A DNA stretch of 44,668 nt from an uncultured Bacteroidota bacterium (GCA_903872185.1 CAIQJL010000165.1:1-44668), one strand, 5' to 3'. Positions 12,035 to 29,547 are shown, counted from the stretch's first letter. Translations and numbers: made by a program. Notes: a model not told the origin generated them from the sequence alone.

Positions 12035-13168
12035 ATGAATCCAATTCCATTTAATAAACCTTTTTTTAGCGGTAATGAGTTAAAATACATTACAGAAGCG
12101 ATTAATTATGGAAAAATATCTGGCAATGGTGTTTTCACAAATAAATGTCATGCTTTTTTCGAAAATAAATATGGATTTGGCAAATGTCTTTTGACTTCCA
12201 GTTGTACCGATGCTCTAGAAATGGCGGCATTACTTATAGATATTAAGCCAGGTGATGAAGTTATTGTACCGTCATATTCTTTTGTGTCAACAGCAAATGC
12301 ATTTGCATTGCGAGGTGCCAGTTTGAAGTTTGCTGATTCAACAAATGTTTCGCCACATATTTCTCCCGAATCAATTGAGGAAGCTATAACATCAAGTACA
12401 AAAGCAGTTGTAATAGTACATTATGGAGGCGTAGCTTGTGATATGGAAAAAATTCTGGCTATAGTAAATAAGTATAATCTTTTTTTAGTTGAAGATTGTG
12501 CTCATTCCATTGATAGTTTTTGGAATGGTAAGCCTTTAGGCTCTTTAGGTAGTTTCGGAACTTTTTCTTTTCATGAAACAAAAAACATTATTTCTGGCGA
12601 AGGTGGACTATTAACAATAAACAGAATAGAAAACAGAAATCGCTCTGAAATTATTTGGGAAAAGGGCACGAATCGTGCAGCATTTTCAAGGGGCGAAGTA
12701 GAGAAATACAGTTGGATTGATTTAGGTTCTTCATATTTACCATCAGAGGTTACAGCAGCATTTTTATTTGCACAACTTGAATCATTAAATATTATACAGG
12801 AAAAGAGAATTAAAATTTGGAATCAATATTATTGTGGATTAAAATCATTGGAAGAACAAGGATATTTGGAATTGCCATTAATTCCTGATTATGCAACAAA
12901 TAATGGCCATCTTTTTTATTTGTTAGCTGATTCACTTGAAACAAGAAATAACCTTATTCAATTTCTTGCAAAGAGTAATATTAATGCTGTATTTCATTAT
13001 CTGCCCTTGCATCAATCACCTTTTATTCAAAAAGCAGGTAGTTCAAATGAATTAACTAATGTTTTTAAATATAGTAATCAACTTATACGCTTGCCATTAT
13101 TTTTTGAAATTACAGATGGACAAGTAGAATATATAATTCAAAAAATTACAGATTTTTATAAAAAATAA
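12035..13168 (+). CDS. dTDP-4-amino-4,6-dideoxy-sugar transaminase, RffA/WecE-like
   Basis: NKPFFSGNELKYI; LLTSSCTDALEMAALLIDIKPGDEVIVPSYSFVSTANAF; VEDCAHSIDS; FSFHETKNIISGEGG. Confidence 0.88.
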   Translation: MNPIPFNKPFFSGNELKYITEAINYGKISGNGVFTNKCHAFFENKYGFGKCLLTSSCTDALEMAALLIDIKPGDEVIVPSYSFVSTANAFALRGASLKFADSTNVSPHISPESIEEAITSSTKAVVIVHYGGVACDMEKILAIVNKYNLFLVEDCAHSIDSFWNGKPLGSLGSFGTFSFHETKNIISGEGGLLTINRIENRNRSEIIWEKGTNRAAFSRGEVEKYSWIDLGSSYLPSEVTAAFLFAQLESLNIIQEKRIKIWNQYYCGLKSLEEQGYLELPLIPDYATNNGHLFYLLADSLETRNNLIQFLAKSNINAVFHYLPLHQSPFIQKAGSSNELTNVFKYSNQLIRLPLFFEITDGQVEYIIQKITDFYKK

Positions 13169-13214: not shown

Positions 13215-14081
13215 TTATCTGTTGATTAAAAGTTTTAAACTGTATTTATGTGAATTATTTTCAGCATTTACATAATAAATTCCAATTGGTAAACTATTTG
13301 TTTCAATTGAAGTAACTGCGCTATTAGTTTTGGATGAAAGTACAGTTTGTCCAATCATGTTTATAACAGTTATATCATATTCTTCACCGTCTAAATTGAT
13401 GAACACATTCTCGTTTGCAGGATTTGGCCACATTGAAGGCATAAAGGTATTGTCTTCTGCAACTTCGGTAGCAGTTGTAAATGCTAAATCATCAATTAGT
13501 AAAATAGTTCCTAAAACAGCTGAAGTAGCTTGTGAAGATCTAAATGTAATATTAAATGTATCAGGAATAATTGTAGTTGGGCTATAAGTTAAAGGAATTG
13601 AGAATAAAGTGTATGTTGATACATTTTGACCTGCAACACTTAAAAATGTTTGATTCGCAAGCGTTAATCTGATTGAACCTGTCCATTTAGTCATAGTAAC
13701 CGTTACTGTCATTCTTTCAGCGCCGTTTCCTGCTGTATATTTGTAATATCCGTGGAATTCGGTTGGTTTACTAGAAATAGGAATACCACCTGAAACTGAT
13801 TGCGTAGTTAAATTTACATTTCCTAATGTAAGTATTCCAGAAATATTACCCGCAGAACCGCTCATATCAGCAGCAGAAGAAACAATTTGTGCCGCATAGT
13901 TTCCACTTCGTTTATCTGTTGATTGACGAATGTAATTAACAGAGTTATTATTGCTTTTCCAACTGCTAATAGTGGTAACGTTTGTCCAGCTTTCAAAGCC
14001 GCTATTAGGAACAGTTTGTGCTGATAAATAACATAGTCCTGTCATTAAAAACAAAGCAAAAAAAGTAGATAATTTTTTCAT
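13215..14081 (-). CDS. T9SS type A sorting-domain secreted protein (paralogue of 28678-29547)
   Basis: Signal peptide; VPNSGFESWTN; C-terminal MWPNPANENVFINLDGEEYDITVINMIGQTV...LPIGIYYVNAENNSHKYSLKLLINR. Confidence 0.8.
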   Translation of the reverse strand: MKKLSTFFALFLMTGLCYLSAQTVPNSGFESWTNVTTISSWKSNNNSVNYIRQSTDKRSGNYAAQIVSSAADMSGSAGNISGILTLGNVNLTTQSVSGGIPISSKPTEFHGYYKYTAGNGAERMTVTVTMTKWTGSIRLTLANQTFLSVAGQNVSTYTLFSIPLTYSPTTIIPDTFNITFRSSQATSAVLGTILLIDDLAFTTATEVAEDNTFMPSMWPNPANENVFINLDGEEYDITVINMIGQTVLSSKTNSAVTSIETNSLPIGIYYVNAENNSHKYSLKLLINR

Positions 14082-14286: not shown

Positions 14287-15318
14287 ATGATTAAAAGTCC
14301 AGAAATTATTTTTATTATTGGAAGGTCCCGATCGGGAACTACATTGTTAAGGACAATGCTTGATATGCATTCACTTATCTCAATTCCGAATGAATGTACT
14401 TTTATTTTACAACTTTCAGAAAAATATAAAAAAGTTAAATCCTGGACCCCAGAAAAAATTGAAAATTTTATTAGAGATCTTAAAAAAACATGGTTATTTG
14501 AAAATTTAAAACTTGATATTGATTTTTTAAAAATAAATCTATTGAATCTTGGTAAAGAGACTAATTTTCAGGAAATATGTAAACAAGTTATTCTGAATTC
14601 TCCATTAGCTGGTTCAAAACCCGATTTGAAATATGTTGGAGATAAAAACCCTTCATCTTCTTTAAACTTAAAAACAATTTATTCAATATTTGGAAAAAAT
14701 TGTAAATACATATACATTAACCGTGATTACAGAGATCAGTATTTATCTCAGATAAATGCCCGAATTGAAATACCAAATATTGTAGTTTCTGCTAAGCGTT
14801 GGGTAAAAGCATTCACTGATTTTTTAAAAGTATCAGAAAATAAAGATTCAATGTTTTATAATTTAAGATATGAAGATCTGGTAACCGAACCAGAGAAAAA
14901 ATTAATAGAAATCTGTGGTTTTTTAAATATTTCATATGATAATAAGATGCTTGAGTTTTATAATATAGAAAATATAAATAAATCATTTTCGGAAATTTCA
15001 CTTCAAGGTATTCATAGTAGTATTAAAAATCCAGTATCGAAAAATAGTATTGGTTTGTGGAAAAATAATTTGGCAGAAAGACAAATAAAAATTTTAGATA
15101 AAATTTGTGGGAAATATAAAGAACAATCAAGCTATAATGCAAATACAAAAATTAATTCTTTTGGGTTTTTTATAATAACATTACCGGGTTACCTGTTATA
15201 TCATTTTACAGTTTTATCTTCGTGTTTTATTAAATGGTTACCTTTTAATATATATATTAAACTTTCCGAGGGAGCTTTTCTAGGTAGTCTTTGGAATAGG
15301 TTACTTAGAAAAAAATAA
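14287..15318 (+). CDS. PAPS-dependent sulfotransferase family protein
   Basis: 5'-PSB motif IIGRSRSGTTLLRTMLD; 3'-PB region YINRDYRDQYLSQINAR. Confidence 0.85.
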   Translation: MIKSPEIIFIIGRSRSGTTLLRTMLDMHSLISIPNECTFILQLSEKYKKVKSWTPEKIENFIRDLKKTWLFENLKLDIDFLKINLLNLGKETNFQEICKQVILNSPLAGSKPDLKYVGDKNPSSSLNLKTIYSIFGKNCKYIYINRDYRDQYLSQINARIEIPNIVVSAKRWVKAFTDFLKVSENKDSMFYNLRYEDLVTEPEKKLIEICGFLNISYDNKMLEFYNIENINKSFSEISLQGIHSSIKNPVSKNSIGLWKNNLAERQIKILDKICGKYKEQSSYNANTKINSFGFFIITLPGYLLYHFTVLSSCFIKWLPFNIYIKLSEGAFLGSLWNRLLRKK

Positions 15319-15320
15319 AC

Positions 15321-16622
15321 ATGCAGAAAAAAATTAGCAACGATATCCTTAAATTTCTTTTAAGTAATATTTTTACTTTAGTTTTATTAGCTGTATCTGG
15401 AATTATTCTTGTCAGAATTCTTGGCCCATCACAAACAGGACGGTTTATTTCAATTTATATAATTCCAAGTATGTTAATTCGATTAACAATGCTAGGGTCA
15501 AGAAAAACAGCAATTACTCATTTTGGTGAAAAAACTTATTCCGATAATGAGATAGTAACGTCTCTTCTTTTTATCTGGATTTTTAGCAGTTTAATGGCAG
15601 TAATTATTTGCACAGCAAATTTTGCTGTCATGCAACATGCAGATATGAATACGCTTACGCACATATTTGTTCTTTCAACTATACCTCTTCGTTTATTTAT
15701 TTTTTATTCAATAAGTGTATTTGTTGGCAAAACAAAATATAACTTTTCAAATATATTTAAACTTCTTCCCGACCTGCTTAACTTCATTATTCTTCTTGTT
15801 TTTATTGCTTATGGTACAATAAATATAAAAGGTGCAATAGTTGCATATTTTTTCTCGAGTCTTGTAGTTGCTGTAATTTGTTTTTTTATGTTAATAAAAC
15901 ATTTTAAAATTAAATTTGAATTTAATAAAAAGATAATTAAATCATTGTCAACCGTTGGTTTTATAAACGCATTGACTCTTTTTGTTATGCAACTTAACTA
16001 TAGATTTGATATTGTTTTATTATATAAATATTCTACAAATTATCAGGTAGGAATTTTTGCATTAGGCACAGCATTAGCTATTGTTATTTGGATTATTCCA
16101 GATACTATTGGGCTAATTGTTAGGAAAAGAATCTTAAAAGCCATAAATCCTATTCTTATAAAACATGAAATTGCCGGTTTTTTAAGGGTTTCATTACTTC
16201 TGAGTATTTTGGTTTCTTTTATAATGTATTTTCTTGCCTCATTTATTTTTACTTTAGTTTTTGGAGAGAGTTTTAAAGAAAGTACAGTTATCTTTAGAAC
16301 AATACTTCCGGGTGTCTTTTTATTTATTATTTTCAGATCATTAAGTGGAGTTCTCCATTTGCTTTGTAATCCAGGAATTATTATTAAAATATTTGTTCCA
16401 GTTTTAATTGTAAATGTAATTCTTAATCTTCTGTGGATACCTTTGTATGGTGGAGTAGGAGCAGCGTGGGCTTCAAATGTAAGTTATGCATTAGGAGCAA
16501 TTACAACATTAATTGTGTTTTCTCAAAAAATGAAAATATCTTTGATTGATATTTTTAAATTTAGCTTTAACGATTTCAGTTTTATTAAAAAACTTTCAAA
16601 AATTGGAAGCCGAAAAAATTAA
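15321..16622 (+). CDS. Polysaccharide flippase (Wzx/MATE-like oligosaccharide translocase)
   Basis: Multi-TM protein; LAVSGIILVRILGPSQTGRFISIYIIPSM N-terminus; PLYGGVGAAWASNVSYALGA. Confidence 0.85.
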   Translation: MQKKISNDILKFLLSNIFTLVLLAVSGIILVRILGPSQTGRFISIYIIPSMLIRLTMLGSRKTAITHFGEKTYSDNEIVTSLLFIWIFSSLMAVIICTANFAVMQHADMNTLTHIFVLSTIPLRLFIFYSISVFVGKTKYNFSNIFKLLPDLLNFIILLVFIAYGTINIKGAIVAYFFSSLVVAVICFFMLIKHFKIKFEFNKKIIKSLSTVGFINALTLFVMQLNYRFDIVLLYKYSTNYQVGIFALGTALAIVIWIIPDTIGLIVRKRILKAINPILIKHEIAGFLRVSLLLSILVSFIMYFLASFIFTLVFGESFKESTVIFRTILPGVFLFIIFRSLSGVLHLLCNPGIIIKIFVPVLIVNVILNLLWIPLYGGVGAAWASNVSYALGAITTLIVFSQKMKISLIDIFKFSFNDFSFIKKLSKIGSRKN

Positions 16623-17661
16623 AAATCTACCCTTCTTTTTTATAATAGGAAGACCAAGAACCGGTACTACTCTTCTTCAGCTTTTTTTTGATGCCCATCC
16701 AAATGTTCAGATACCTTCTGAATGCATGCATGTTGGACAACTGTTTATTCATTATTCAAGCATTAAAAAATGGGACAATCAAATAATAGATAATTTTATT
16801 CAAGACTTTTGCAAAACCTGGCTATTTACTTTTGATAAATTTAATGTACCGCAAATCAAAGTAGATTTAACTGAAAATAAAGATGTACTGAATTATAGTA
16901 TGGTTTGTAAGATAATTGCAAAAAACTATAACACTGTTTACAAGAAAGAAGAGTTGCTATTATGCGGAGATAAAAACCCATTTTACTCGCAGGTTTTTGG
17001 TAGTATTTTTCGAGTTGTTGATAATTCTAAATTTATTCATTTAGTGAGAGATCCCCGAGATACTCATATATCACTTTTTAACACAAGATTTGTATCACCA
17101 TCAATAACATATAACACTAAGCGATGGGTTAATTCAGTTAAAACTCTTGATGCATATTCAAAACATTTTCCAAATTTAATTTATACTCTCAGATATGAAG
17201 ATTTAGTAGTTGAACCTGAAAAATATTTAAAAGAGATCTGTGCTTTTTTAAACATACCGTTTTCTTCTGAAATGCTAAATTACCTTGACGAAAAAGAGAA
17301 TCTAACTAAGGTTGCTTTTGTAAATGATGGGTATAAACAAAAATATCATTTAAGTGTTTGCGAAAAAGTAAATACCAAAAAAATTGGCCAATGGAAAACC
17401 CGGCTTAGTGCTGGTAAAATAAAGAAAGCCGAAAAAGTAGCAGGTACTTGGTTAGAAAAATATGGATATGAGAGGAAATATAAATCATCTGGATTGTGGT
17501 CATATTTTTCTACTTTGCCAGGGTTATTTTTATATCATTTTATAGAATGGGAAAGAAGACAATTAGTACATTTACCAAAAAAATGGCAACTAAAAATTGC
17601 TCTAAAATCACATATACCATTTTTATTCTGGTGGAAATTTTATGGTAATAAAAAATTATAG
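16546..17661 (+). CDS. Sulfotransferase family protein; true start probably later (e.g. TTG at 16603)
   Basis: FFIIGRPRTGTTLLQLFFDAHPNVQIPSECM; HLVRDPRDTHISLFNTRF. The ATG at 16546 overlaps the flippase by 77 nt. Confidence 0.85.
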   Translation: MIFLNLALTISVLLKNFQKLEAEKIKNLPFFFIIGRPRTGTTLLQLFFDAHPNVQIPSECMHVGQLFIHYSSIKKWDNQIIDNFIQDFCKTWLFTFDKFNVPQIKVDLTENKDVLNYSMVCKIIAKNYNTVYKKEELLLCGDKNPFYSQVFGSIFRVVDNSKFIHLVRDPRDTHISLFNTRFVSPSITYNTKRWVNSVKTLDAYSKHFPNLIYTLRYEDLVVEPEKYLKEICAFLNIPFSSEMLNYLDEKENLTKVAFVNDGYKQKYHLSVCEKVNTKKIGQWKTRLSAGKIKKAEKVAGTWLEKYGYERKYKSSGLWSYFSTLPGLFLYHFIEWERRQLVHLPKKWQLKIALKSHIPFLFWWKFYGNKKL

Positions 17662-17677
17662 AAATAGCTGATTAAAT

Positions 17678-18754
17678 ATGAGTAATTCTGAATCAGAAAA
17701 TATAAAATCAATTCCTTTCTTTTATATTATCGGACGTCCCCGATCAGGAACTACTTTGCTCCAATTATTTTTTGATGCCCATCCGAATGTGCAGATTCCT
17801 TCTGAATGCATGTATATTGCTCATTTGTTAGGTCATTATAGAACAGTGAAATTCTGGACCAGAATTGAGATTGAATCATTTGTTCATGATTTAAGTAATT
17901 TATGGCTTTTTAGTCTTGAAAAATTTAATATTAATAAAATTGAAGAAGAGTTAATTGCGAATTCAAGTAGCTTAACTATTGATATTGTTTTTAAAATTGT
18001 TGCAAAAAATTATAACAGTATATACGAAAAAAAAGAATTATTACTTTTAGGAGATAAAAATCCATTTTATTCTCAGGTTTTTGGAGCAATATTTAATGCA
18101 ATTCCAAATGCTAAATTCATTCTTTTAATTAGAGATCCTAGAGACAATCATATTTCTCTTTTCAACTCCCGTTTCACCGCTCCATCAATAACATATGATA
18201 CGATGTATTGGAAAAAAGCAATTCGTTCAGTTGAGCGTTTTCAACAATATTATCCAGAAAGATTTTACATTTTAAAATACGAAGATTTAGTTAAAGAAAC
18301 AGAAAAATATGTAAAAGAAATGTGTGAATTTTTGGGGATCCCTTTTTTGCCAGAAATGCTTAAATATCGAGAACGAAAAACAGATGACTTTACAAAAGTA
18401 GTTTTCACAAATGAAGCTTTTTTTAAAGCAAATCATACAAGTATTTTAGAACCAGTAAATACATCGAAAATTGATGGGTGGAAAACAAAATTAACAAAAT
18501 GTTCAATTAAAAAAGCTGAACGAGCTTCAGGTATCTATTTAGACAAATATTCTTATGTGAGATTAGACAAAACGCCTGGAATTTGGTCATATTTGTCAAC
18601 TATTCCGGGAAAGTTTTTATTTCATTTTATGGAATGGGTAAGTAGAAATGTTGTTATTTTGCCCAAAAGTTTGCAAATTAAAATTGTTCGCAATAATCAT
18701 AGAGTATTTGCTTTGTTATGGAAGGTATTTGTTCGAAAGAATAAAAAGTTGTGA
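17678..18754 (+). CDS. Sulfotransferase family protein (tandem paralogue of the previous gene)
   Basis: FFYIIGRPRSGTTLLQLFFDAHPNVQIPSECM; LLIRDPRDNHISLFNSRF. Confidence 0.88.
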   Translation: MSNSESENIKSIPFFYIIGRPRSGTTLLQLFFDAHPNVQIPSECMYIAHLLGHYRTVKFWTRIEIESFVHDLSNLWLFSLEKFNINKIEEELIANSSSLTIDIVFKIVAKNYNSIYEKKELLLLGDKNPFYSQVFGAIFNAIPNAKFILLIRDPRDNHISLFNSRFTAPSITYDTMYWKKAIRSVERFQQYYPERFYILKYEDLVKETEKYVKEMCEFLGIPFLPEMLKYRERKTDDFTKVVFTNEAFFKANHTSILEPVNTSKIDGWKTKLTKCSIKKAERASGIYLDKYSYVRLDKTPGIWSYLSTIPGKFLFHFMEWVSRNVVILPKSLQIKIVRNNHRVFALLWKVFVRKNKKL

Positions 18755-18784: not shown

Positions 18785-20119
18785 CTACTTTATATTATTT
18801 TTAATTTGCATGTTCTTTAAGTGTTGTACATATGCATTCTGATAGCTCTTTAGAAATTTCATGTTTGTATGATGGGCTAATTTTGTAATTCTAATACTTC
18901 TTGTTTGTATCAACGTGTAAAATGTTCTAAGAAATATATTCTTTTTGGTATATATAGAGACAATAATTTCATAAAAGAGTTTATTTAGCTCCCCGGCTGT
19001 TAGGTTCTTGGGCTTATAAACGACATTAGCAAAATTATACTTATTCCAATCTGTAGGATAATTGTTATTTACAATTCTATCTTGTTTCTCGAGTTCTTTA
19101 TAGCTTACTGTTCCTGGCAATGGAGTTAAATAAGCTAAACCTACAGTATTAATTTTATTTTTTAAAATGAATTTTTTTCTTCTTAAAATGGTTTCTTTAG
19201 TATCTGTGTCAAACCCAATAATAAAGCCACCCATTACATATATCTTATACTTGTTAATTCTTTTTACAGCTTTAATATAACTGTTTGCACCTGCTTTAAT
19301 GTTTAAATTTTTATTCATTTCTACAAGTTGCTCTTCTTCTTCGGCTTCAAAACCTATAAAAATCATGTAACATCCACTATCTGCGGCTGCTTTTAAAATT
19401 TCTGGTTTGTCGGCAAAATTTATTGAAGCAAATGAAAACCATGCTTTATTAAGGTTAGCTTCTTTTATTTTCACAAATAATTCCAATGCCCTTTCTTCAT
19501 TCTTTTTTCCAACACCTAATATATTATCATCAAGAATAAAGATTGTTTTTGCTTTGATTGTTTTTAGCTCTTCAATAACTTCATCAACAGGCCTATGGCG
19601 ATATTGATTTCCATTAAATAATGAAACAGAACAAAAGTCACAATTAAACGGGCACCCACGCGAAGTTTGAATTACACCAACAGTATAGCGAGGATGAAGC
19701 AAATCATGACGTGGAATAGGCCAATTTTGATATGGTAAATGTTCGGCTTCATATTTTTTTTTAAGTTCGCCTTTTTCAAAATCTTCTATTACTTTATTCC
19801 ATATACCTTCTGCTTCGCCAATTACCACACTATCTACATAATTTAATGCTTCGTCAGGTAAAATGGAAGCGTGAATGCCACCCATTATAACTTTTACGTT
19901 ATTGTCGCGATATAATTTCGCAAACTCGTATGCTTTGTTAGCAGTGCAGGTAAAAGATGTTATTCCAACTAAATCGGCAGGCTTAAATGTTACCTTATCA
20001 AAATTATTATCTAAAATTTCAACTTCCCAATTTTTAGGTGTAAGAGAAGCAATAATAGCCAAACTTAGTGGTGGGTATTTTTGAAAAGCATTATTGGGGT
20101 TGATTAATAGAAGTTTCAT
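18785..20119 (-). CDS. B12-binding domain radical SAM protein
   Basis: N-terminal cobalamin-binding-like domain (LLLINPNN...YPPLSLAIIASL...GGIHASILPDEAL) and RGCPFNCDFCS 4Fe-4S CX3CX2C motif. Confidence 0.9.
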   Translation of the reverse strand: MKLLLINPNNAFQKYPPLSLAIIASLTPKNWEVEILDNNFDKVTFKPADLVGITSFTCTANKAYEFAKLYRDNNVKVIMGGIHASILPDEALNYVDSVVIGEAEGIWNKVIEDFEKGELKKKYEAEHLPYQNWPIPRHDLLHPRYTVGVIQTSRGCPFNCDFCSVSLFNGNQYRHRPVDEVIEELKTIKAKTIFILDDNILGVGKKNEERALELFVKIKEANLNKAWFSFASINFADKPEILKAAADSGCYMIFIGFEAEEEEQLVEMNKNLNIKAGANSYIKAVKRINKYKIYVMGGFIIGFDTDTKETILRRKKFILKNKINTVGLAYLTPLPGTVSYKELEKQDRIVNNNYPTDWNKYNFANVVYKPKNLTAGELNKLFYEIIVSIYTKKNIFLRTFYTLIQTRSIRITKLAHHTNMKFLKSYQNAYVQHLKNMQIKNNIK

Positions 20120-20123
20120 GGAT

Positions 20124-20927
20124 TTATTTTTTCTTTTTTAGAACGTAAAATAAATATTTTATAGTTCCATTTGTAAGTCCATCATACAATGGTGTTCCGG
20201 GAAGCGCAACCATATCACTTAATTTTTTATTGGGCGATATTTTTCCTTTTACATAATGTTTACGAATACTAGCTTGTAATTCAATCGACCTCATTATGGG
20301 TTTTGTGTTATCTGTCTTTTTTTCGATATAAAAACCAAGCTCGTCAAATTGTTTTTCCATTGCTGCTGTTTGGTCATCGTGCCAGAATAAATCGGAATAT
20401 AAAAATGTTCCATCGTCTTTAAGAATGGCAAAAACGTTTTTATAGAAATTCATCTTTGACGCATAACAGTGCGATGATTCAAGATTTAAAACAACATCAA
20501 AACTTTTATTCGGAAAAATCTGTTTTTCTGCATCACCACGAATAAATTCAACAGCATTACCCTTGTTTAGTTTTTTTCCGTATCTTATGTTAGCATCAGA
20601 AATGTCTACTCCAACTGCTTTTGCAGGTTTGTAATGATTCATTAATAATTCTAGTCCTGCACCTCTACCGCAACCAATTTCAAGATAATTTTTACCATCT
20701 ATAGTTGCTTCCCTCATTAAGTGTAAGTATAAGTTTTGTGAAAGTTTTCTAAATAATAATGGATTATATGCATCTAATTCAATAGTTTCACCATCTTCAA
20801 TAATGCCATGATTTAAAAAGCGGGCTTTTCTAAGTATTCCTATTGTACCAATATAATTATAGAATACTCTCCAGAAAAGTTTTTTATAATGTTTTTTTAA
20901 CGGTTTGGGTACGTATTTATAAATCAT
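20124..20927 (-). CDS. Class I SAM-dependent methyltransferase
   Basis: NYLEIGCGRGAGLELL motif I; VGVDIS; FDVVLNLESSHCY. Confidence 0.85.
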   Translation of the reverse strand: MIYKYVPKPLKKHYKKLFWRVFYNYIGTIGILRKARFLNHGIIEDGETIELDAYNPLLFRKLSQNLYLHLMREATIDGKNYLEIGCGRGAGLELLMNHYKPAKAVGVDISDANIRYGKKLNKGNAVEFIRGDAEKQIFPNKSFDVVLNLESSHCYASKMNFYKNVFAILKDDGTFLYSDLFWHDDQTAAMEKQFDELGFYIEKKTDNTKPIMRSIELQASIRKHYVKGKISPNKKLSDMVALPGTPLYDGLTNGTIKYLFYVLKKKK

Positions 20928-20929
20928 AG

Positions 20930-21622
20930 TTAAATAATTAATTTTCCTGAGTAAATTTTACTTCCGTTTATTTCTTTGCATTGAATAGATGGATCTTCTT
21001 GCATTAGTGGTAAAACATAAAGATTTTCCATCATTTGAGCTAAACCGGTTTCATAATCATGCTTTTCTAATTCCAATGAAATCTCACCGTTTGAGTTTGT
21101 GTTTACCATAATGGTTCTTCTTAGCTTTTCTGTTCGATTTCTGAAGTTTTCTTTAGTGAGTTTTATTTTAATTTGTTTGCTTTTTGGTTTATTCTCAATA
21201 ACATCATATCCAATTATGGTATTGTATTCAATAGCTCTGGTATTTTTTTTAAGTACTTTTGCAAATGAGTCGCCACCTTTCATAATGTAAAAACCTATTT
21301 CGCAGAGTAAAACCGAAGCAAGTAAAGGAGCAAAGTCATATGTGTCGTTCCAAATAAATATTCCAGCTTCAGAAGAACTGTCTTTGGTTTCAATGTTTTT
21401 ATTATTTATAAGACCTATTTTTTCGTTTTTATAAATAATAAGATAATACGAATTCTGATTGTTGTTAATTGAATGAAACCATTTTATTTGTTGTTCGGGA
21501 GTAATGTGATCGCGGTAAATCATATGGCAGCTTACTATAGGATCATTTCGCCATTGCCTTATAAGCTCAATGTCGTCTATAGTAATCCTACTAAGTGTTA
21601 TGCCGTATCGATTCCACTTCAT
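20930..21622 (-). CDS. GNAT-family N-acyltransferase (PseH-like N-terminal region)
   Basis: LSRITIDDIELIRQWRNDPIVSCHMIYRDHITPEQQIKWFHSI...YYLIIYKNEKIGLINNKNIE. Confidence 0.65.
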   Translation of the reverse strand: MKWNRYGITLSRITIDDIELIRQWRNDPIVSCHMIYRDHITPEQQIKWFHSINNNQNSYYLIIYKNEKIGLINNKNIETKDSSSEAGIFIWNDTYDFAPLLASVLLCEIGFYIMKGGDSFAKVLKKNTRAIEYNTIIGYDVIENKPKSKQIKIKLTKENFRNRTEKLRRTIMVNTNSNGEISLELEKHDYETGLAQMMENLYVLPLMQEDPSIQCKEINGSKIYSGKLII

Positions 21623-21623
21623 T

Positions 21624-22538
21624 TTATATTTTCTCTTTTACAAGGTAAGCCGGACGTTTATTTTGCATTTTGTATACTTTATGAAGGTATTGTCCGATAA
21701 TTCCTAAACTCAAAATGATTATACTGGTTGAAAAAAGAATTGTAACAATAATTGAGGTATATCCCGGAGGAACTTTATAAAATATTTTACGGAAAATATA
21801 ATAAATTCCAAATAAAAAGGTAAGTATTGATGAAATAAAACCACCGTAAACCATAATTTTTAAAGGGATATCGGTGCTAACAACGAGTAATTTAAAGGCT
21901 AGTCTAAATAAATTAAAAGTAGAATACTGTGTTGTGTTAAAAATTCTTTTTTTATGTTCAACTTCAACAAAGCTAATTGATGTTGTATACCATAATAACA
22001 AATCATCAATATAAACAAATTCCTGACTGTGTTGTAAAAGACAATCAACGATTTCTCTTTTAATTAGTCGGAAAGACGAACCTTCACCTGGCGTTTTATA
22101 AATAACTTTCGACGATTTTTTAATTACATTACTGCCAAAATTTCTAATAGCAGAATGATTTTTCTTTGAAAAATAACCATAAACCAAATCTGGTTGCTGC
22201 TCATTGTAACAGGCTATAAGTTTCTTAATGTCTTCGGGTTGAAGCTGTAAGTCATCGTCAATTGTAATGATGTATTTTCCTTGTACGTTAGCAAATCCAC
22301 ACAAAACAGCATTATGCTGACCAAAATTTCTTGATAATTTTATTCCTTTAACTTTTTCTGGATTCTTATTTTTAATTTTTTTTATTACTTCCCAGCTTTC
22401 ATCCCAACCTCCATCTTCAACAAAAATAATTTCGTATTCTTTGTTAAGTTCCGAAAAAACTTTATCGGTTCTATCGAAAAGCTCTTCTAAAGAATCTTTG
22501 CTGTTATAAACCGGGACTACAACTGAATATTCTATCAT
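21624..22538 (-). CDS. Family 2 glycosyltransferase with C-terminal TM helices (DPM1/GtrB-like)
   Basis: YSVVVPVYNSKDSLEEL; FVEDGGWDESWEVI; GKYIITIDDDLQLQPEDI; two C-terminal TM segments. Confidence 0.92.
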   Translation of the reverse strand: MIEYSVVVPVYNSKDSLEELFDRTDKVFSELNKEYEIIFVEDGGWDESWEVIKKIKNKNPEKVKGIKLSRNFGQHNAVLCGFANVQGKYIITIDDDLQLQPEDIKKLIACYNEQQPDLVYGYFSKKNHSAIRNFGSNVIKKSSKVIYKTPGEGSSFRLIKREIVDCLLQHSQEFVYIDDLLLWYTTSISFVEVEHKKRIFNTTQYSTFNLFRLAFKLLVVSTDIPLKIMVYGGFISSILTFLFGIYYIFRKIFYKVPPGYTSIIVTILFSTSIIILSLGIIGQYLHKVYKMQNKRPAYLVKEKI

Positions 22539-22550
22539 AGTGATTTATTT

Positions 22551-23285
22551 TCAAAAACCTCCCATTAAAATATTGGCGCCTGTTATCCACTTTGAAGCAT
22601 CGGATAATAAAAATAAAACTGTATTTGCAACATCATCAGGTGTGCCAAAGCCTAAAGGGTGAACAGATTTCATTACAGTCATTGATTCAGGCGAAAGTGT
22701 TTTGGTTACTTTTTCGAGCATTGGAGTTTGGACCATAGCTGGCGAAATACAATTTGCTCTTATTTTACGTGAAGCCAGTTCTAAAGCAAGTGTTGTGCAA
22801 TAACCTTCAAGAGCTTTTTTAGAACTGGTATACAGTGCTCCACCATAATAAGGATGAAGAGTTGCTATAGTCGATAAAAAAACCAAAGAAGCTCCATCTG
22901 CAAGCTTTTTTTGTGAAATCAGAAAACGATTAAGTAAAACAGGAGCTTCAAAATTTATTTTAAAAACTTCATCAATTTGTTTTTTTCCAATAAGCTGAGC
23001 TGGTATATGACTTGTTATTCCAGCAGAGTGTACAACACCGTGCACTGTTCCAAGTGAAGAAACACCTTCTTTTACAATTTTTTCGTCTGTAATATCAGCA
23101 ACAAAGCTAATATGTCCTTCACCGGATAATTGCGAAAAAGTTTCAGAAAGTCTTTCTTTATTTCTTCCAACTATAATCACTTTTGCACCTTCGTATGAAA
23201 GGCGAATTGCTACCCGTTGTCCAATTCCGGATGATGCTCCTGTTATAAGGATACATTTATCTTTCAAAGAAAACGGATTTTCCAT
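22551..23285 (-). CDS. SDR-family oxidoreductase (FabG-like ketoacyl reductase)
   Basis: ITGASSGIGQRVA; catalytic LSTIA...YTSSKKALEGY (Ser/Tyr/Lys). Confidence 0.9.
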   Translation of the reverse strand: MENPFSLKDKCILITGASSGIGQRVAIRLSYEGAKVIIVGRNKERLSETFSQLSGEGHISFVADITDEKIVKEGVSSLGTVHGVVHSAGITSHIPAQLIGKKQIDEVFKINFEAPVLLNRFLISQKKLADGASLVFLSTIATLHPYYGGALYTSSKKALEGYCTTLALELASRKIRANCISPAMVQTPMLEKVTKTLSPESMTVMKSVHPLGFGTPDDVANTVLFLLSDASKWITGANILMGGF

Positions 23286-23291
23286 TATGTT

Positions 23292-24395
23292 TTATGTGTT
23301 ATCAGTGATTTTAAATAATGGTATTTTGTCTCCAAGATTAGGATATTCAATTACTTCAGGGCAAACAATTTTATCTGTTTTAATTGCCACACTACCCCAC
23401 GATAAGCCAACACCGAATCCTGAAAGAATTAGCGAAAGATTTTTTTCTTGCAGTTCATTTCTAATTTCCGAAACCATTGTTAATGGAATAGAAGCACAGC
23501 TTGTGTTTCCGTATTTTTGTAATGTGTAAGGGACTTTTTCGGGAGCTAATTTTAATTTTTTTCTGATAGTTTCATTCATCAGCTTATTTGCCTGATGGAA
23601 AAGGTAAAAATCAAAATCGTTGGCGTCTTTTGAAATATTTGCTAAAAGTACTTTTATGTTAGGTGCCACTTCACGGAGGGAAAAATTAAAAACATCTATT
23701 CCACTTAAATGAAGTTGAAAACGGTTGCGTTTAATGCCAGGCATTACTTCTTTTAAAATAAAAGAATCTTCTTTAGGAAAATTTCGTGTGCCTCCTTCGG
23801 GGATACTTATAGCTTCCCAGCCAGAACCGTCCGATTGAAGATTAAAAAATATTTGTTCAGCATTTGGATCGTATTCAAGCACAGTAGCAGTTCCGGAATC
23901 ACCAAAAAGTGGAAAAGTACTTGGGTCTAAATAAGAAGTACTCATAGTACTAATATCTCCAACTAATAAAAGTCCTTTTTTAAGTTGACCTTTTTGAATC
24001 ATACTTCCCATAATGTACAATCCATAAACATAACCCGAACATCCAAGAGGAATATCAAAGGCAAGGGAAGTCATGGGAATACCCATTTTATTTTGAAGAA
24101 CTATTGCTGTGCAGGGTAAAATATAATCGCGTGATTGACTTACAAAAATCACTAAATCAATTTCTGATGGGCTAATATTCATTTCTGAAAACAGTTTTTC
24201 GGCTGCTTTCTGGCACATGTCAGAAGTTGTAATTTTTGATCCTGCCATTCTTCTTTTCTCAACACCAATAGTGTTAATTAAAAGTGTTCTTTCAGCAGGT
24301 GGAATTAAATCGTAATCGTTGTTATTGTACTCGAACTGAGGCACGCATGCTGCAAGTCCAGTAATTTTAACCTTTTCAATATTAACTATAGCCAT
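23292..24395 (-). CDS. 3-oxoacyl-ACP synthase III family (KASIII); start reassigned to MAIVNIEK
   Basis: Cys (DIPLGCSGYVYGL), His (FYLFHQANKLM) and Asn (KYGNTSCASIP) triad. The ORF-track start 24434 would overlap the ACP gene. Confidence 0.9.
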   Translation of the reverse strand: MAIVNIEKVKITGLAACVPQFEYNNNDYDLIPPAERTLLINTIGVEKRRMAGSKITTSDMCQKAAEKLFSEMNISPSEIDLVIFVSQSRDYILPCTAIVLQNKMGIPMTSLAFDIPLGCSGYVYGLYIMGSMIQKGQLKKGLLLVGDISTMSTSYLDPSTFPLFGDSGTATVLEYDPNAEQIFFNLQSDGSGWEAISIPEGGTRNFPKEDSFILKEVMPGIKRNRFQLHLSGIDVFNFSLREVAPNIKVLLANISKDANDFDFYLFHQANKLMNETIRKKLKLAPEKVPYTLQKYGNTSCASIPLTMVSEIRNELQEKNLSLILSGFGVGLSWGSVAIKTDKIVCPEVIEYPNLGDKIPLFKITDNT

Positions 24396-24396
24396 A

Positions 24397-24630
24397 TTAT
24401 GAAATTCTGGATTGTACCAGAGTAAATAAATCATTAATTGTTGATGAAGCTCTTAAATCATCTGCTGTTAAAATAACATCGTATTCTGTATCAACTAAAG
24501 CAATAAGGATAAGTGCATTTATTGAATTCCAGTTCATCACTTCCCTGAAAACAGATTCAGAATGTAATATTCCTTGTTCCATATCAGAAAATTCTGCTTC
24601 TATCTTTTGAATAAATTCTTCAATAATCAT
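24397..24630 (-). CDS. Acyl carrier protein (variant NSI phosphopantetheine site)
   Basis: 77 aa, acidic; VMNWNSINALILIALVDTEYDVILTADDL resembles the ACP helix II region with DSL replaced by NSI. Confidence 0.8.
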   Translation of the reverse strand: MIIEEFIQKIEAEFSDMEQGILHSESVFREVMNWNSINALILIALVDTEYDVILTADDLRASSTINDLFTLVQSRIS

Positions 24631-24758
24631 TTTAATAATATTTTATAAAAACTATAATAATCATCAAAAATAATAAAAACCCTTTAAAAATGCATAAGAA
24701 AATCAAGTTAAGATAAAATTCATCTTAAACTAGTTGAATTATAAGTAATTTAATCTTT

Positions 24759-24784
24759 ATAATTAGGGCTAGCACCCTAATTAT
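24759..24784. repeat. Inverted repeat ATAATTAGGG-CTAGCA-CCCTAATTAT upstream of ACP operon
   Basis: Perfect 10-bp stem in the 195-bp KASIII/ACP gap. Confidence 0.7.
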
Positions 24785-24825
24785 TTTAAGTGTAAAACCG
24801 TTAAATTAAGTGTTAAAATAATCTT

Positions 24826-25845
24826 TTATTCAACAGTTAGAACTGTAGCTCCCCATGAATAACCGACTCCAAAAGCAGCAATTAGGATCTTGTTACCTTT
24901 TTTAATTTGTTCTTTATTGCTAATATTAGCCAAAACTATTGGAACCGAAGAAGAAACAGTATTACCTGTAGTTTCTAAATCAATAATTAATTTTTCTTCA
25001 GGTATACAAAGCTTTTTTCTAATTGTTTCTAAAATAATTTTATTTGCCTGGTGCAATACAAAAAAATCAATGTCAGCAATATTCAGGTTAGATTTTTCGA
25101 GAGTTTGCTTAATTAACTTAGGTGCCATATTAATTGAAAACAGAAAAACAGCATTGCCATTCATGTAAAAATTTGAGGAAGTTCTGATGTTTCCGTATTC
25201 GTCTTTAATTTCATCAGATGCTGCTTCAGAAAGTGCATGTCTGGCGCCGCCATATTTTATAATAATATTTTGAAAACCTTTTCCGTCTGTTCCTAAAACA
25301 AATTTTCCTATTTCAAGACCAAGCTTACCTGGTATATTTGAAATTAATGCAGCCGTTGAACCATCGCCAAATAAAAAACGCGAGCTTTTATCTTTTTTAT
25401 TAATGTATCGCGAACTTGTTTCTGCAGTTAAGAGCAGTATGTTATTTGCTGTTCCCGCTTTTATTAACCCATCTGCAACAGACAGTCCGTAAAGGAAACC
25501 AGTGCACCCCTGATTGATATCAATGGCCCCAGCAGATGTAGGGATATTTAATTTATGTTGTAAAATACAGGCTGTAGTAGGTGTAATGTAATCGTTACTT
25601 TGTGTGCAGAATAAAATAAAATCAATAGTATTTCGATCTAGATTATTTTCTGATAATAATTTTTCTGAAGCGTTAAATGCAAGATCTGATGGTGTTTCAT
25701 CAGGCTTTGCAATATGCCTGGAAAAAACTCCGGTTGATTGGTACATTTCTGTAACATTCCATTCGGGAAATGAATTTTTTAATTCGTCATTTGTAAGAAG
25801 AGTTTCAGGTAAATGATAACACAAATGTGAAATATAACTCTTCAT
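24826..25845 (-). CDS. 3-oxoacyl-ACP synthase III family (KASIII), second copy
   Basis: Cys (DINQGCTGFLYGL), His (FFVLHQANKII) and Asn (TTGNTVSSSVP) triad. Confidence 0.9.
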   Translation of the reverse strand: MKSYISHLCYHLPETLLTNDELKNSFPEWNVTEMYQSTGVFSRHIAKPDETPSDLAFNASEKLLSENNLDRNTIDFILFCTQSNDYITPTTACILQHKLNIPTSAGAIDINQGCTGFLYGLSVADGLIKAGTANNILLLTAETSSRYINKKDKSSRFLFGDGSTAALISNIPGKLGLEIGKFVLGTDGKGFQNIIIKYGGARHALSEAASDEIKDEYGNIRTSSNFYMNGNAVFLFSINMAPKLIKQTLEKSNLNIADIDFFVLHQANKIILETIRKKLCIPEEKLIIDLETTGNTVSSSVPIVLANISNKEQIKKGNKILIAAFGVGYSWGATVLTVE

Positions 25846-25851
25846 TATGTT

Positions 25852-27852
25852 TTATTTATTTACGAATGTTATTACAGGTATATTGGCCAGAACTCGGTAT
25901 TTTTCAGCTTTTACTTTATCTTTATTTTTAAAGTAATAATATAATAATTCTGAAATAACTTTATTTGATGGAACTTTCATGCTTGCTGCTTCAAAAGATT
26001 TCATTGCATTTACCGAGTCGGATCTCATAAGATAATATGTTCCAATATTTACATAAGGAATATCTGATGAAGGATCAATTTTCATTAAAGTTTGGTTTAG
26101 TGTAATAGCAGAGTCAATATTATTTAAATAATCGTTATAAATATTTGCCATATTACTCCATGCTTTTATATATTTAGAGTCAAGTACTGTTGCTTTATTA
26201 TAATATTTTACAGCTTGTTTGTAATTACCAAGTTTTTCAAAAGTAAACCCTAAATTATATATTGCATCAAAATATAAGGGTTTTAATTTTATTGATTCTT
26301 TAAAATACCATATTGCTTTTGAATATATTTCACGTTGTTTGGAACTGTCATTTTCAAAAGGGGCAAGCATTGTAATGTAAATTGTACCTATATTGTTATA
26401 GCTTGAATAATATGATGGAAGTACTTTTATTGAATTGTTGTAAAAAAGTATAATCGAATCTGCTTTTTCTTTAAGGTTATTTGGAACTATACCGCTGTTT
26501 AAGGTAGTATTTACATCCTGCATCATTTGGCTGGCGATTAATGCATTTGATTTTCCTGACTTGCTTAAATATTTAATGTCGTTTAGGTATAGCGACATAT
26601 GAGTATTCCAATCAGGGTTTCGGGATATGGTTTTTGCAGAACATGGGATGAGAATTATAAATAGAGGGATTAAAATTTTTATCCAATCTTTTTTTAGTAT
26701 GTTATTTTGTATGGTTTCAATCTTTAAAAGCTTAAGCAGAAGAAAAGCAATTGCAAGACAGAAGCCTAATGAAGAAGCATATACATAACGCTCAGCAACA
26801 ATTCCCATTGCAGGTTTAAAAATATTTGAGAATAAAGAAATAGTAATAAAAAAATATAAAATTGAAAATGATAAAACGTGTCTTTTTTTAATTCCAAATA
26901 ATGAATAAATAAAAAGTGCTAAAAGTGTAATTGCTGTAACAATGACCACTGGATTGTACAGACTAACCATAGGTATCATATTATATCCATAATAAAAAAC
27001 CAGAGGATGAGGGTAAATTAAAATCTTTAAATAAAAAAGAAGTGATAAGATTCCCATTGGAATTTTATAAGTTAAAGATGGGTAAAAGAAAAGAGGATTC
27101 TCAAAAAAGAAAACATCACGACTAGGTGCAGGTAATAGTGCTTTAGGTATGAATCGAGCTGCAATCATAGCAATTAAAATTATTATAAATGCCAGCACTA
27201 TTTTTTTCATAGAAGTTTTCCCATAGAAGTATAGAACTAAAGGAAATATAGCTACAAAAACTATTGCACTAGATTTAGAAAAATATGCTAGAATATAACT
27301 AATGAAAGCATAAATAAGATATTTTAATTTAGAGTAATCGGCATATTTTAAAAGAAACCAAAGTGAAATAATACATCCCAGAAAACTCAGTAATTCGTCG
27401 CGATTTTTTAAGGAGGCCACTACTTCTGTATGAACTGGGTGTGCTACAAATAAAATTATAGCCGCAAATGATAATAATGGCGAGTATGAGGCAAAAAGTT
27501 TTCTTAGAATTTTAAATAAAAGCAATGCTGTTAATGCATATAGTAGAATATTTATAAAGTGGCTTACATGTGGGTTTTGACCAAAAAATTGATGTTCAAT
27601 AGCAAAGGTAGTTTTTACAACAGGCCTATATTCATATTTAAGTTTTCCTTCAGAATAAAAGGTTGACCAAATTGCAGGAATTGCTTTTATTCCACCAGCA
27701 ATTCGTTTGTTGTTATATGAAACTAATTCATCATCTAATGAATAATGATTTGGAATGGTGTTCCCGTATAAAATAAAACACAGCGCAAAAATAATTACGT
27801 TGAGAAGACCAGTCTTAAACTCAGAAACTTTAACGAATGAAGAATTAACCAT
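25852..27852 (-). CDS. Polytopic membrane protein with C-terminal TPRs (TMTC/PMT-like putative O-glycosyltransferase)
   Basis: NHYSLDDELVSYNNKRI N-terminal acidic motif, many TM helices, then TPR units (FDAIYNLGFTFEKLGNYKQAVKYYNKATVLDSKYIKAWSNMANIY). Confidence 0.75.
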   Translation of the reverse strand: MVNSSFVKVSEFKTGLLNVIIFALCFILYGNTIPNHYSLDDELVSYNNKRIAGGIKAIPAIWSTFYSEGKLKYEYRPVVKTTFAIEHQFFGQNPHVSHFINILLYALTALLLFKILRKLFASYSPLLSFAAIILFVAHPVHTEVVASLKNRDELLSFLGCIISLWFLLKYADYSKLKYLIYAFISYILAYFSKSSAIVFVAIFPLVLYFYGKTSMKKIVLAFIIILIAMIAARFIPKALLPAPSRDVFFFENPLFFYPSLTYKIPMGILSLLFYLKILIYPHPLVFYYGYNMIPMVSLYNPVVIVTAITLLALFIYSLFGIKKRHVLSFSILYFFITISLFSNIFKPAMGIVAERYVYASSLGFCLAIAFLLLKLLKIETIQNNILKKDWIKILIPLFIILIPCSAKTISRNPDWNTHMSLYLNDIKYLSKSGKSNALIASQMMQDVNTTLNSGIVPNNLKEKADSIILFYNNSIKVLPSYYSSYNNIGTIYITMLAPFENDSSKQREIYSKAIWYFKESIKLKPLYFDAIYNLGFTFEKLGNYKQAVKYYNKATVLDSKYIKAWSNMANIYNDYLNNIDSAITLNQTLMKIDPSSDIPYVNIGTYYLMRSDSVNAMKSFEAASMKVPSNKVISELLYYYFKNKDKVKAEKYRVLANIPVITFVNK

Positions 27853-28677: not shown

Positions 28678-29547
28678 TTATTGGATACTAATTTTTTGAG
28701 TTGAATTTATTTTTTCATTTGTTACGCGAACCAAGTATAAACCTTTAGCTATATTTGAGACATTAATGTTTTTATTTAATTCATTTTTTTGTAAAGTCTC
28801 AGTTTGCAAAATTTGGCCATTTAAATTACAAATTTCAACAGTTGTATTTTGAATAGAGTTTTCTGAAAGATTAATAAAAAGATAGTCGCTTGCAATTGTA
28901 GGGTATACTTTTACTGTATTTGAAATTGTGTTGTTGTTAATTCCAGTTGTACTGCCTTCTGTAGCAATTGCATCAACAGTTAGCATACTGCCTGGTTTTG
29001 CTGCGCCTGAAGTTTTAGTTGAAGAATAGAATGTAATTATTATTTTATCAGGGTTACTTGCTGAAGTATATGTAAGTGGGACTTCAAATTTAGTCCAAAC
29101 AGAAACGTTACCTGTACTAATAAAAGAGCCAGTAGCAATATTAGATCCAGCTAATTGAAGACTAACTTCAAAAACAGCATCATCTGTTATTGAATCAGTA
29201 TGATATTTAAAATATCCTACTACTTTTAAAGGTCTTTCAGTAAAATTTGCGCCACCAGTTATTGTTGATCCGGTTGTTCCGGTTGTAAGAACGCCAGGAA
29301 ATCCAACTGTTGTTGGTCCAAGAGTGAATGATTTTGAAATAATATTAGCACAGGAAGAAAGATCATAAGGTGTGTTTGTTTCTTGCATAACCGAACCAGC
29401 CATATTTGGAATAGTTTGGGCATTTAATGATTTCCAACCATCAGGATTTCCGCCTGTCCAAGTTTCAAAACTAGGGTTTGGAATTTGAGCATAAATGGCA
29501 TTTATTGCCATGCATAACAAAAATGATAAAATGTAGTTTTTTGTCAT
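28678..29547 (-). CDS. T9SS type A sorting-domain secreted protein (paralogue of 13215-14081)
   Basis: Signal peptide; IPNPSFETWTGG; C-terminal VKVYPTIASDYLFINLSENS...NVSNIAKGLYLVRVTNEKINSTQKISIQ. Confidence 0.8.
   Translation of the reverse strand: MTKNYILSFLLCMAINAIYAQIPNPSFETWTGGNPDGWKSLNAQTIPNMAGSVMQETNTPYDLSSCANIISKSFTLGPTTVGFPGVLTTGTTGSTITGGANFTERPLKVVGYFKYHTDSITDDAVFEVSLQLAGSNIATGSFISTGNVSVWTKFEVPLTYTSASNPDKIIITFYSSTKTSGAAKPGSMLTVDAIATEGSTTGINNNTISNTVKVYPTIASDYLFINLSENSIQNTTVEICNLNGQILQTETLQKNELNKNINVSNIAKGLYLVRVTNEKINSTQKISIQ

Follow-up and report, generated by a model that had tools for sequence, protein, structure and literature searches.

Organization of the locus

The locus described here lies on a 44,668-nt stretch of DNA (the window) from an uncultured Bacteroidota bacterium (GCA_903872185.1 CAIQJL010000165.1:1-44668), and centers on a block of nine minus-strand genes at 18785-27852 in which an acyl-building cassette, served by an acyl carrier protein (ACP) of its own, is combined with genes of amino-sugar acylation and glycosyl transfer. 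All nine open reading frames (ORFs) placed here by a first-pass annotation are present and intact, and the families it had named are borne out by profile searches. The block is headed by a TMTC-like membrane glycosyltransferase of the GT-C type (25852-27852; PF13231, 33.2 bits against a cut-off of 26.1), bearing D40-D41 in its first external loop and C-terminal tetratricopeptide repeats (TPRs). Behind it lie KAS1, a KASIII-type enzyme proposed as the starter-unit condensing enzyme (24826-25845; NF006829, 284 bits against 249), the private ACP with Ser36 (24397-24630), KAS2, a second KASIII with a proposed role in extension (23292-24395; PF08541/PF08545), and a short-chain dehydrogenase/reductase (SDR) resembling the 3-oxoacyl-ACP reductase FabG (22551-23285; PF13561, E=4.6e-43). 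These are followed by a GtrB/ArnC-type GT2 glycosyltransferase (21624-22538), a GNAT protein proposed to act as an acyl-ACP:dTDP-amino-sugar N-acyltransferase (20930-21622), a class I S-adenosylmethionine (SAM)-dependent methyltransferase (20124-20927; Methyltransf_11, with Mtf2/phthiotriol-type models as the best NCBIfam matches, under their cut-offs) and a B12-binding radical SAM enzyme (18785-20119; PF04055 and PF02310).

The first-pass boundaries of the system proved too narrow. A convergent plus-strand operon at 14287-18754, comprised of three sulfotransferase genes and a flippase gene, and a plus-strand aminotransferase gene at 12035-13168 belong to it as well; the WecE-type aminotransferase, the flippase and the pairing of GT2 with the TMTC-like protein had all been missed. 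The genes had been described as tightly spaced, which holds for most of the operon but not for KAS1 and ACP, which are separated by 195 bp. This AT-rich gap (24631-24825) is of similar size in two relatives (L027 and L028) and is a possible site of an internal promoter or regulatory RNA.

The acyl-building cassette

Both condensing enzymes keep the Cys-His-Asn triad that had been attributed to them (C132/H280/N310 in the numbering of the window KAS2); it is retained in all KAS1 and KAS2 members, including 30/30 of the KAS2 family. In a phylogenetic tree, KAS1 and KAS2 form separate old clades, each apart from FabH, with a support of 99/91 for the KAS1 clade. The CoA-gating positions of FabH (W32/R36) are lost in both enzymes, as judged from alignment with an E. 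coli FabH reference sequence and with the organism's own FabH, which has the same W and R. KAS2 was called as an ORF of 23292-24434, and its more likely start is the ATG at 24395, directly behind the ACP stop codon, giving a protein of 367 residues without overlap, as in the relative L027. The window ACP falls below the Pfam gathering cut-off (PF00550, E=0.014); 17/18 members of its family match this profile, the best at 2.6e-6, and Ser36 is invariant across the family. Two tandem ACPs lie between KAS1 and KAS2 in one Bacteroidetes metagenome-assembled genome (L006:3421-3899). The SDR retains its Tyr and Lys as first stated (Y152/K156, conserved across relatives), and the operon indeed contains no dehydratase, enoyl reductase or thioesterase.

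Two other assignments of the KASIII pair were excluded. The housekeeping FabH is a third KASIII gene, which lies next to a PlsX-like ORF on a different contig (G000:C238), and the cassette KASIIIs lie outside its clade, which removes them from housekeeping type II fatty acid synthesis. A flexirubin/dialkylresorcinol or aryl-polyene pathway is contradicted by DarB scores of 55 and 20 bits against a cut-off of 550, and by the lack of a dehydratase in the window. The earlier proposal of a dedicated, non-housekeeping, ACP-dependent acyl module is supported, as is the link of this module with glycosyl transfer and with an N-acyltransferase for amino sugars, in a neighborhood whose conservation is described below.

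Proposed sugar supply, acylation and transfer

The GNAT had been called PseH-like, and a weak match to PseH does exist (1.3e-8 in a profile comparison with solved structures), but the protein fails the PseH cut-off of TIGR03585 (53 against 93.1 bits) and its best solved relative is FdhC (5KTA, 4.6e-11, a match of only about 46 bits). FdhC is the 3-hydroxybutanoyl-transferase that acts on dTDP-Fuc3N to make Fuc3N(R3Hb) (PMC4869667). A sugar substrate may be supplied by the gene at 12035-13168 (+), which encodes a WecE-type transaminase for dTDP-4-amino-4,6-dideoxygalactose (dTDP-Fuc4N; PRK11706, 523.7 bits against 375; TIGR02379, 483.6 against 434.85) and whose homologues adjoin cluster genes in several families. 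The dTDP-4-keto sugar can be made, since the window genome encodes an RmlB that scores over its cut-off in a profile search. PseC and PseB homologues at the contig edge (331-2519, -) also pass their NCBIfam cut-offs (PseB, 516 against 407.75; PseC, 464 against 423.5). In the sister species G004, where the nine-gene block is 92-99% identical and the WecE gene is kept (89%), PseB/PseC are missing at the syntenic place; they were rejected as the sugar source of the cassette on this ground, and the difference between the two genomes would reflect a recent insertion or loss.

GT2 aligns over its full length, C-terminal membrane part included, with GtrB (5EKP, residues 2-301, 1.7e-43) and ArnC (9HWJ, residues 4-302, 1.1e-40), both of which are polyprenyl-phosphate transferases, and its DxD positions are conserved across relatives. 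Its score against the ArnC model NF007986 (168.6 bits, cut-off 529) makes it ArnC-like rather than an ArnC. The flippase (15321-16622, +; 433 residues) has no Pfam match. A profile built from 15 members of its family finds the lipid III flippase of known structure (9G95, E=1.1e-8), with positions 16-406 out of 433 covered, which places the protein as WzxE-like within the MOP family; the lipid III flippase comes from the Fuc4NAc-containing enterobacterial common antigen (ECA) pathway. Features of a TMTC-like GT-C enzyme are present in the first protein of the block, namely a PMT_2-type membrane domain over its cut-off, an acidic first-loop motif, whose DD pair occurs in 6/6 full-length N-termini, and C-terminal TPRs. 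GT2 and the TMTC-like protein would form a polyprenyl-phosphate/GT-C pair. To our knowledge, neither donors nor acceptors are known for bacterial TMTC-like GT-C enzymes. Two related PCMD proteins with type IX secretion system sorting tails flank the cluster, at 13215-14081 and 28678-29547 (-), the left one also lying beside the cluster in G003 and G004; they are possible acceptors of the sugar.

Conservation and co-inheritance

Survey of 295 genomes of the same order with GT2 as the query returned a close homologue in 35, from 20 families, and the set TMTC-KAS1-ACP-KAS2-SDR-GT2-GNAT is present in these, whole or in part (about 12% of the genomes). The neighborhood, which the first-pass annotation had proposed to check in relatives, is conserved across many families. 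Annotation by profiles of 33 loci outside the window genus, some of them cut by contig ends so that the counts are lower bounds, found GNAT at 27, KAS2 at 24, SDR and ACP at 23 each, sulfotransferase at 19, radical SAM at 14 and flippase at 12. KAS2, SDR and GT2 are adjacent at 21 of these loci and GT2 and GNAT at 23, and the linkage ACP-KAS2-SDR-GT2-GNAT is maintained in many families. The set is usually accompanied by the sulfotransferase and flippase genes of 14287-18754 and sometimes by the aminotransferase of 12035-13168; in G003, whose KAS1 is 77% identical, both convergent operons are retained.

Co-inheritance extends beyond physical linkage. A strong TMTC homologue occurs in 35/35 GT2 genomes compared with 42/295 overall (p=8e-39; p=4e-19 at the family level), and a strong flippase homologue in 27/35 compared with 31/295 (3.7 expected; p=5e-27; p=2e-14 at the family level). 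The E-value cut-offs for a strong homologue (flippase 1e-100, TMTC 1e-180) were chosen by eye after the lists were seen, and the p-values overstate independence as the families are related, while the direction is clear. The co-occurrence of GT2, flippase and TMTC holds even where the genes lie on different contigs. Among other genomes sampled from the class, the flippase was found in only one, and there too it is accompanied by sulfotransferase, GNAT and GT2.

Among the 35 GT2 genomes, KAS1 is found in 16 and a stand-alone fatty acyl-AMP ligase (FAAL) of about 570 residues in 13, and no genome has both (5.9 expected, p=2e-5). Beside the TMTC gene, KAS1 occurs in 11 genomes and the stand-alone FAAL in 6, as would be expected of alternative starter modules. 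This alternation, like the gene families, key residues, conservation and co-inheritance, was observed directly. It is restricted to the stand-alone type: a larger FAAL of about 690 residues, in which a Pfam scan of one member showed an ACP domain fused to the C-terminus, adjoins KAS1 in G055, and both are present in G209, G111 and G210, so the broader rule that KAS1 excludes every FAAL type was wrong. We infer that KAS1 would provide a starter de novo and the ligase would load a ready-made acid, either of which KAS2 and the SDR would extend and reduce; because FAAL-bearing loci keep KAS2 and the SDR after a ready-made acid has been loaded, KAS2 is best read as the extension step, and two condensations become likely in the window organism. 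The FAAL version is accompanied by a pair of MBOAT and DUF1574/SGNH-like genes at L070, L073, L077, L078, L079, L081 and L110, which suggests an extra O-acylation outside the cytoplasm.

Proposed tailoring genes

The three sulfotransferases of the convergent operon are of the type that uses 3'-phosphoadenosine 5'-phosphosulfate (PAPS) and lie at 14287-15318, 16546-17661 and 17678-18754 (all +; PF13469, E=2.9e-21, 1.6e-29 and 3.7e-31), the second with conserved 5'-phosphosulfate-binding (5'-PSB) and 3'-phosphate-binding (3'-PB) residues. PAPS can be made, as an adenosine 5'-phosphosulfate (APS) kinase is encoded in the window genome. In the radical SAM enzyme the CxxxCxxC cysteines (C156/C160/C163) are conserved across relatives, and the homologues at the 14 loci noted above number one to three copies per relative; at each of L062 and L071, three genes for B12-binding radical SAM enzymes stand in tandem and run divergently to ACP, which suggests serial tailoring of an acyl chain. 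The methyltransferase was found in relatives only at L027 and L028, that is, in the genus of the window, and is thus a local tailoring step rather than part of the core.

Relation to known systems

Contrary to the first-pass view that such a set would be new in Bacteroidota, the acyl cassette itself has a published precedent in the wfpC-wfpD-wfpE-wfpF-wfpG genes for the O-antigen R1 group of Flavobacterium psychrophilum, with wfpC-F in the order KAS-ACP-KAS-KR; their product is a 3,5-dihydroxyhexanoyl group on Qui2NAc4N, of which the chemistry is solved and the gene assignment is a prediction (PMC6519341). Like the window, wfp combines two KASIIIs, an ACP and a ketoacyl-ACP reductase in a member of the Bacteroidota with an N-acyltransferase for a 4-amino-6-deoxy sugar. 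It differs in its PglD-like left-handed β-helix acyltransferase, its Wzx/Wzy O-antigen and its UDP-bacillosamine-type sugar, whereas the window has a GNAT, a WecE-type dTDP-sugar, a GtrB/ArnC-type GT2, a TMTC GT-C, sulfotransferases and a radical SAM enzyme. The closest parallel to F. psychrophilum within the order is a wfp-like O-antigen R-group locus, L089 (G011:C11:28000-47000), which contains three KASIIIs, two ACPs and two SDRs, with PglF-like, LegC-type transaminase, KAS-ACP-KAS-SDR and NeuD/PglD-type acyltransferase genes.

The Pseudomonas viosamine island, to which the set had first been likened, is an analogue with one KASIII (vioA/B/S/R/acp/M/T; PMC3927599). The P. syringae island shares the KASIII, ACP, reductase, aminotransferase, acyltransferase and methyltransferase that yield an N-hydroxyacyl, methylated dTDP-4-amino-6-deoxy sugar, but has a flagellin target and a soluble VioT, and lacks a polyprenyl step, a flippase and a GT-C enzyme (PMC3927599). 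Judged from the genes alone, the window holds the hallmarks of a wfp/vio-type cassette: a Ser-bearing private ACP, a non-FabH KASIII, an SDR, and an N-acyltransferase together with a 4-aminotransferase.

The later steps find their counterparts elsewhere. ArnB-ArnA-ArnC-ArnT, for L-Ara4N, and GtrA/GtrB/GtrC share with the window an aminotransferase, an N-acylated amino sugar, ArnC/GtrB-type polyprenyl-phosphate transfer and transfer outside by a GT-C enzyme. Arn uses a formyl group, whereas the window has an ACP-built acyl group, no ArnD, a MOP flippase in place of GtrA/ArnEF, and a TPR-bearing GT-C. With ECA the window shares the WecE-type transaminase, over its cut-off, and a flippase whose closest relative of known structure is WzxE; it lacks ECA polymerization genes and has the GNAT and private ACP system in place of the acetyltransferase WecD. 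Rhizobial Nod factor genes (nodF/E/G/A/H, noeE) likewise decorate a sugar by means of a private ACP, ketosynthase, SDR, N-acyltransferase and sulfotransferase, and compared with these the window has no chitin synthase, another acyltransferase fold, and a membrane GT-C and flippase. FdhC and QdhC take their acyl group from CoA. They share with the window acyl transfer to a dTDP-amino-dideoxy sugar, in Fuc3N/Qui3N O-antigens (PMC4869667), but act on 3-amino sugars and without a private ACP/KASIII set.

No description was found of such a cassette coupled to a GtrB/ArnC-type GT2, flippase, TMTC GT-C, sulfotransferases and B12-radical SAM enzyme, nor of the starter swap, and a search for bacterial TMTC returned nothing; this is weak evidence, since subscription literature lay mostly outside the search. 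What seems new is the combination of genes, its co-inheritance and the starter swap, and the full assembly appears undescribed.

Proposed pathway and alternatives

The locus probably encodes a polyprenyl-phosphate-dependent pathway that decorates the cell surface with a rare amino sugar, an N-acylated 4-amino-6-deoxy sugar. In the pathway that we infer, from the substrates and the sequence of reactions to the number of condensations, the sulfation site and the acceptor, KAS1 would charge the private ACP with a 3-oxoacyl starter, to be reduced by the SDR; KAS2 would then add a second malonyl unit, and another reduction would give a short (di)hydroxyacyl-ACP. The B12-radical SAM enzyme, joined in this genus by the methyltransferase, may tailor the acyl group or the sugar. 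The WecE-type transaminase would produce dTDP-Fuc4N, to whose 4-amino group the GNAT would transfer the acyl group from ACP, and GT2 would pass the sugar to polyprenyl-phosphate. Sulfate would be placed on sugar or acyl hydroxyls before the WzxE-like protein flips the polyprenyl-linked sugar, and the TMTC-like GT-C would carry out the final, extracytoplasmic transfer of this sugar to a secreted glycan or protein.

Several points weigh against this pathway. An acetyl-CoA primer is not assured, as KAS1 and KAS2 lack W32/R36 of FabH, and models assign the SDR only a generic specificity. The WecE-type gene is linked at some loci only, and the sequence of GT2 does not show whether its donor is a dTDP- or a UDP-sugar. 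We know of no characterized ArnC/GtrB system with a MOP flippase, and the substrate of this one may be a larger lipid-linked glycan. The roles given to the radical SAM enzyme and the sulfotransferases, and the acceptors of the latter, are predictions.

A further point is the number of condensations, which the first-pass annotation put at one, with one KASIII, or both redundantly, and the SDR giving a 3-hydroxybutyryl-type group on the amino sugar. Such a route has a model in vioS/acp/vioR/vioB, where a single KASIII serves to make N-(3-hydroxybutyryl) viosamine (PMC3927599), and would suit a GNAT resembling a 3-hydroxybutanoyl-transferase. It is nonetheless not the better guess and appears unlikely: the two KASIIIs, of separate clades and with intact triads, are both kept across many families, the persistence of KAS2 and SDR at FAAL-bearing loci implies an extension step, and in the single Bacteroidota case of two KASIIIs with ACP and reductase for which the chemistry is solved, the acyl group is doubly condensed (PMC6519341). 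Because KAS1 and KAS2 belong to different clades, the window organism is no less likely to perform two condensations than one. An ordinary O-antigen or capsule locus, in which a Wzx-like protein flips a multi-sugar repeat and the TMTC-like protein adds a side group, is similarly doubtful. The Wzx-like flippase would fit it, as would the wfp-type cassettes of O-antigen loci in the same order (L089), but the conserved set has no Wzy, no initiating phosphoglycosyltransferase and a single GT, and GT2 is of the polyprenyl-monophosphate type.

Less probable still is a sulfated N-acyl lipid or natural product to which GT2 and TMTC are incidental. Sets of FAAL, B12-radical SAM, ACP and sulfotransferase are typical of such clusters, but the cassette is inherited together with GT2, flippase and TMTC also where these are not linked to it, the GNAT and aminotransferase are of nucleotide-amino-sugar types, and the MBOAT and SGNH-like partners added at several loci are typical of extracytoplasmic glycan O-acylation. 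Least credible of all is that the cassette acts on a pseudaminic-type sugar made by PseB/PseC, with the GNAT as a PseH variant: the NCBIfam scores of the two enzymes and the weak PseH match speak for it, but PseB/PseC are gone from the syntenic place in G004 where the WecE gene is retained, were not found adjoining the cluster in other families, and the GNAT, under the PseH cut-off, is nearer to FdhC.

Concluding remarks

Taken at its fullest, the polyprenyl-phosphate-dependent pathway would be an undescribed, co-inherited form of glyco-lipidation in Bacteroidota. A sulfated Fuc4N, linked to polyprenyl-phosphate and bearing an acyl chain that is built on ACP and tailored by the B12-radical SAM enzyme, would be attached to secreted proteins or glycans by the TMTC-like enzyme with its TPRs, and the length of the chain would be set by an exchangeable starter module, either KASIII or fatty acyl-AMP ligase. 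This extended version is offered tentatively and is less likely than not to hold in full. In this locus a bacterial GT-C of the TMTC-like type is tied to the dedicated synthesis of an acyl group, and the predicted donor is polyprenyl-phosphate-N-acyl-Fuc4N, possibly sulfated. Its gene set would predict the type of acyl group that each species places on the same sugar, a short hydroxyacyl with KAS1 and preformed fatty acids with FAAL, across about 12% of the genomes sampled from this large order of environmental Bacteroidota.

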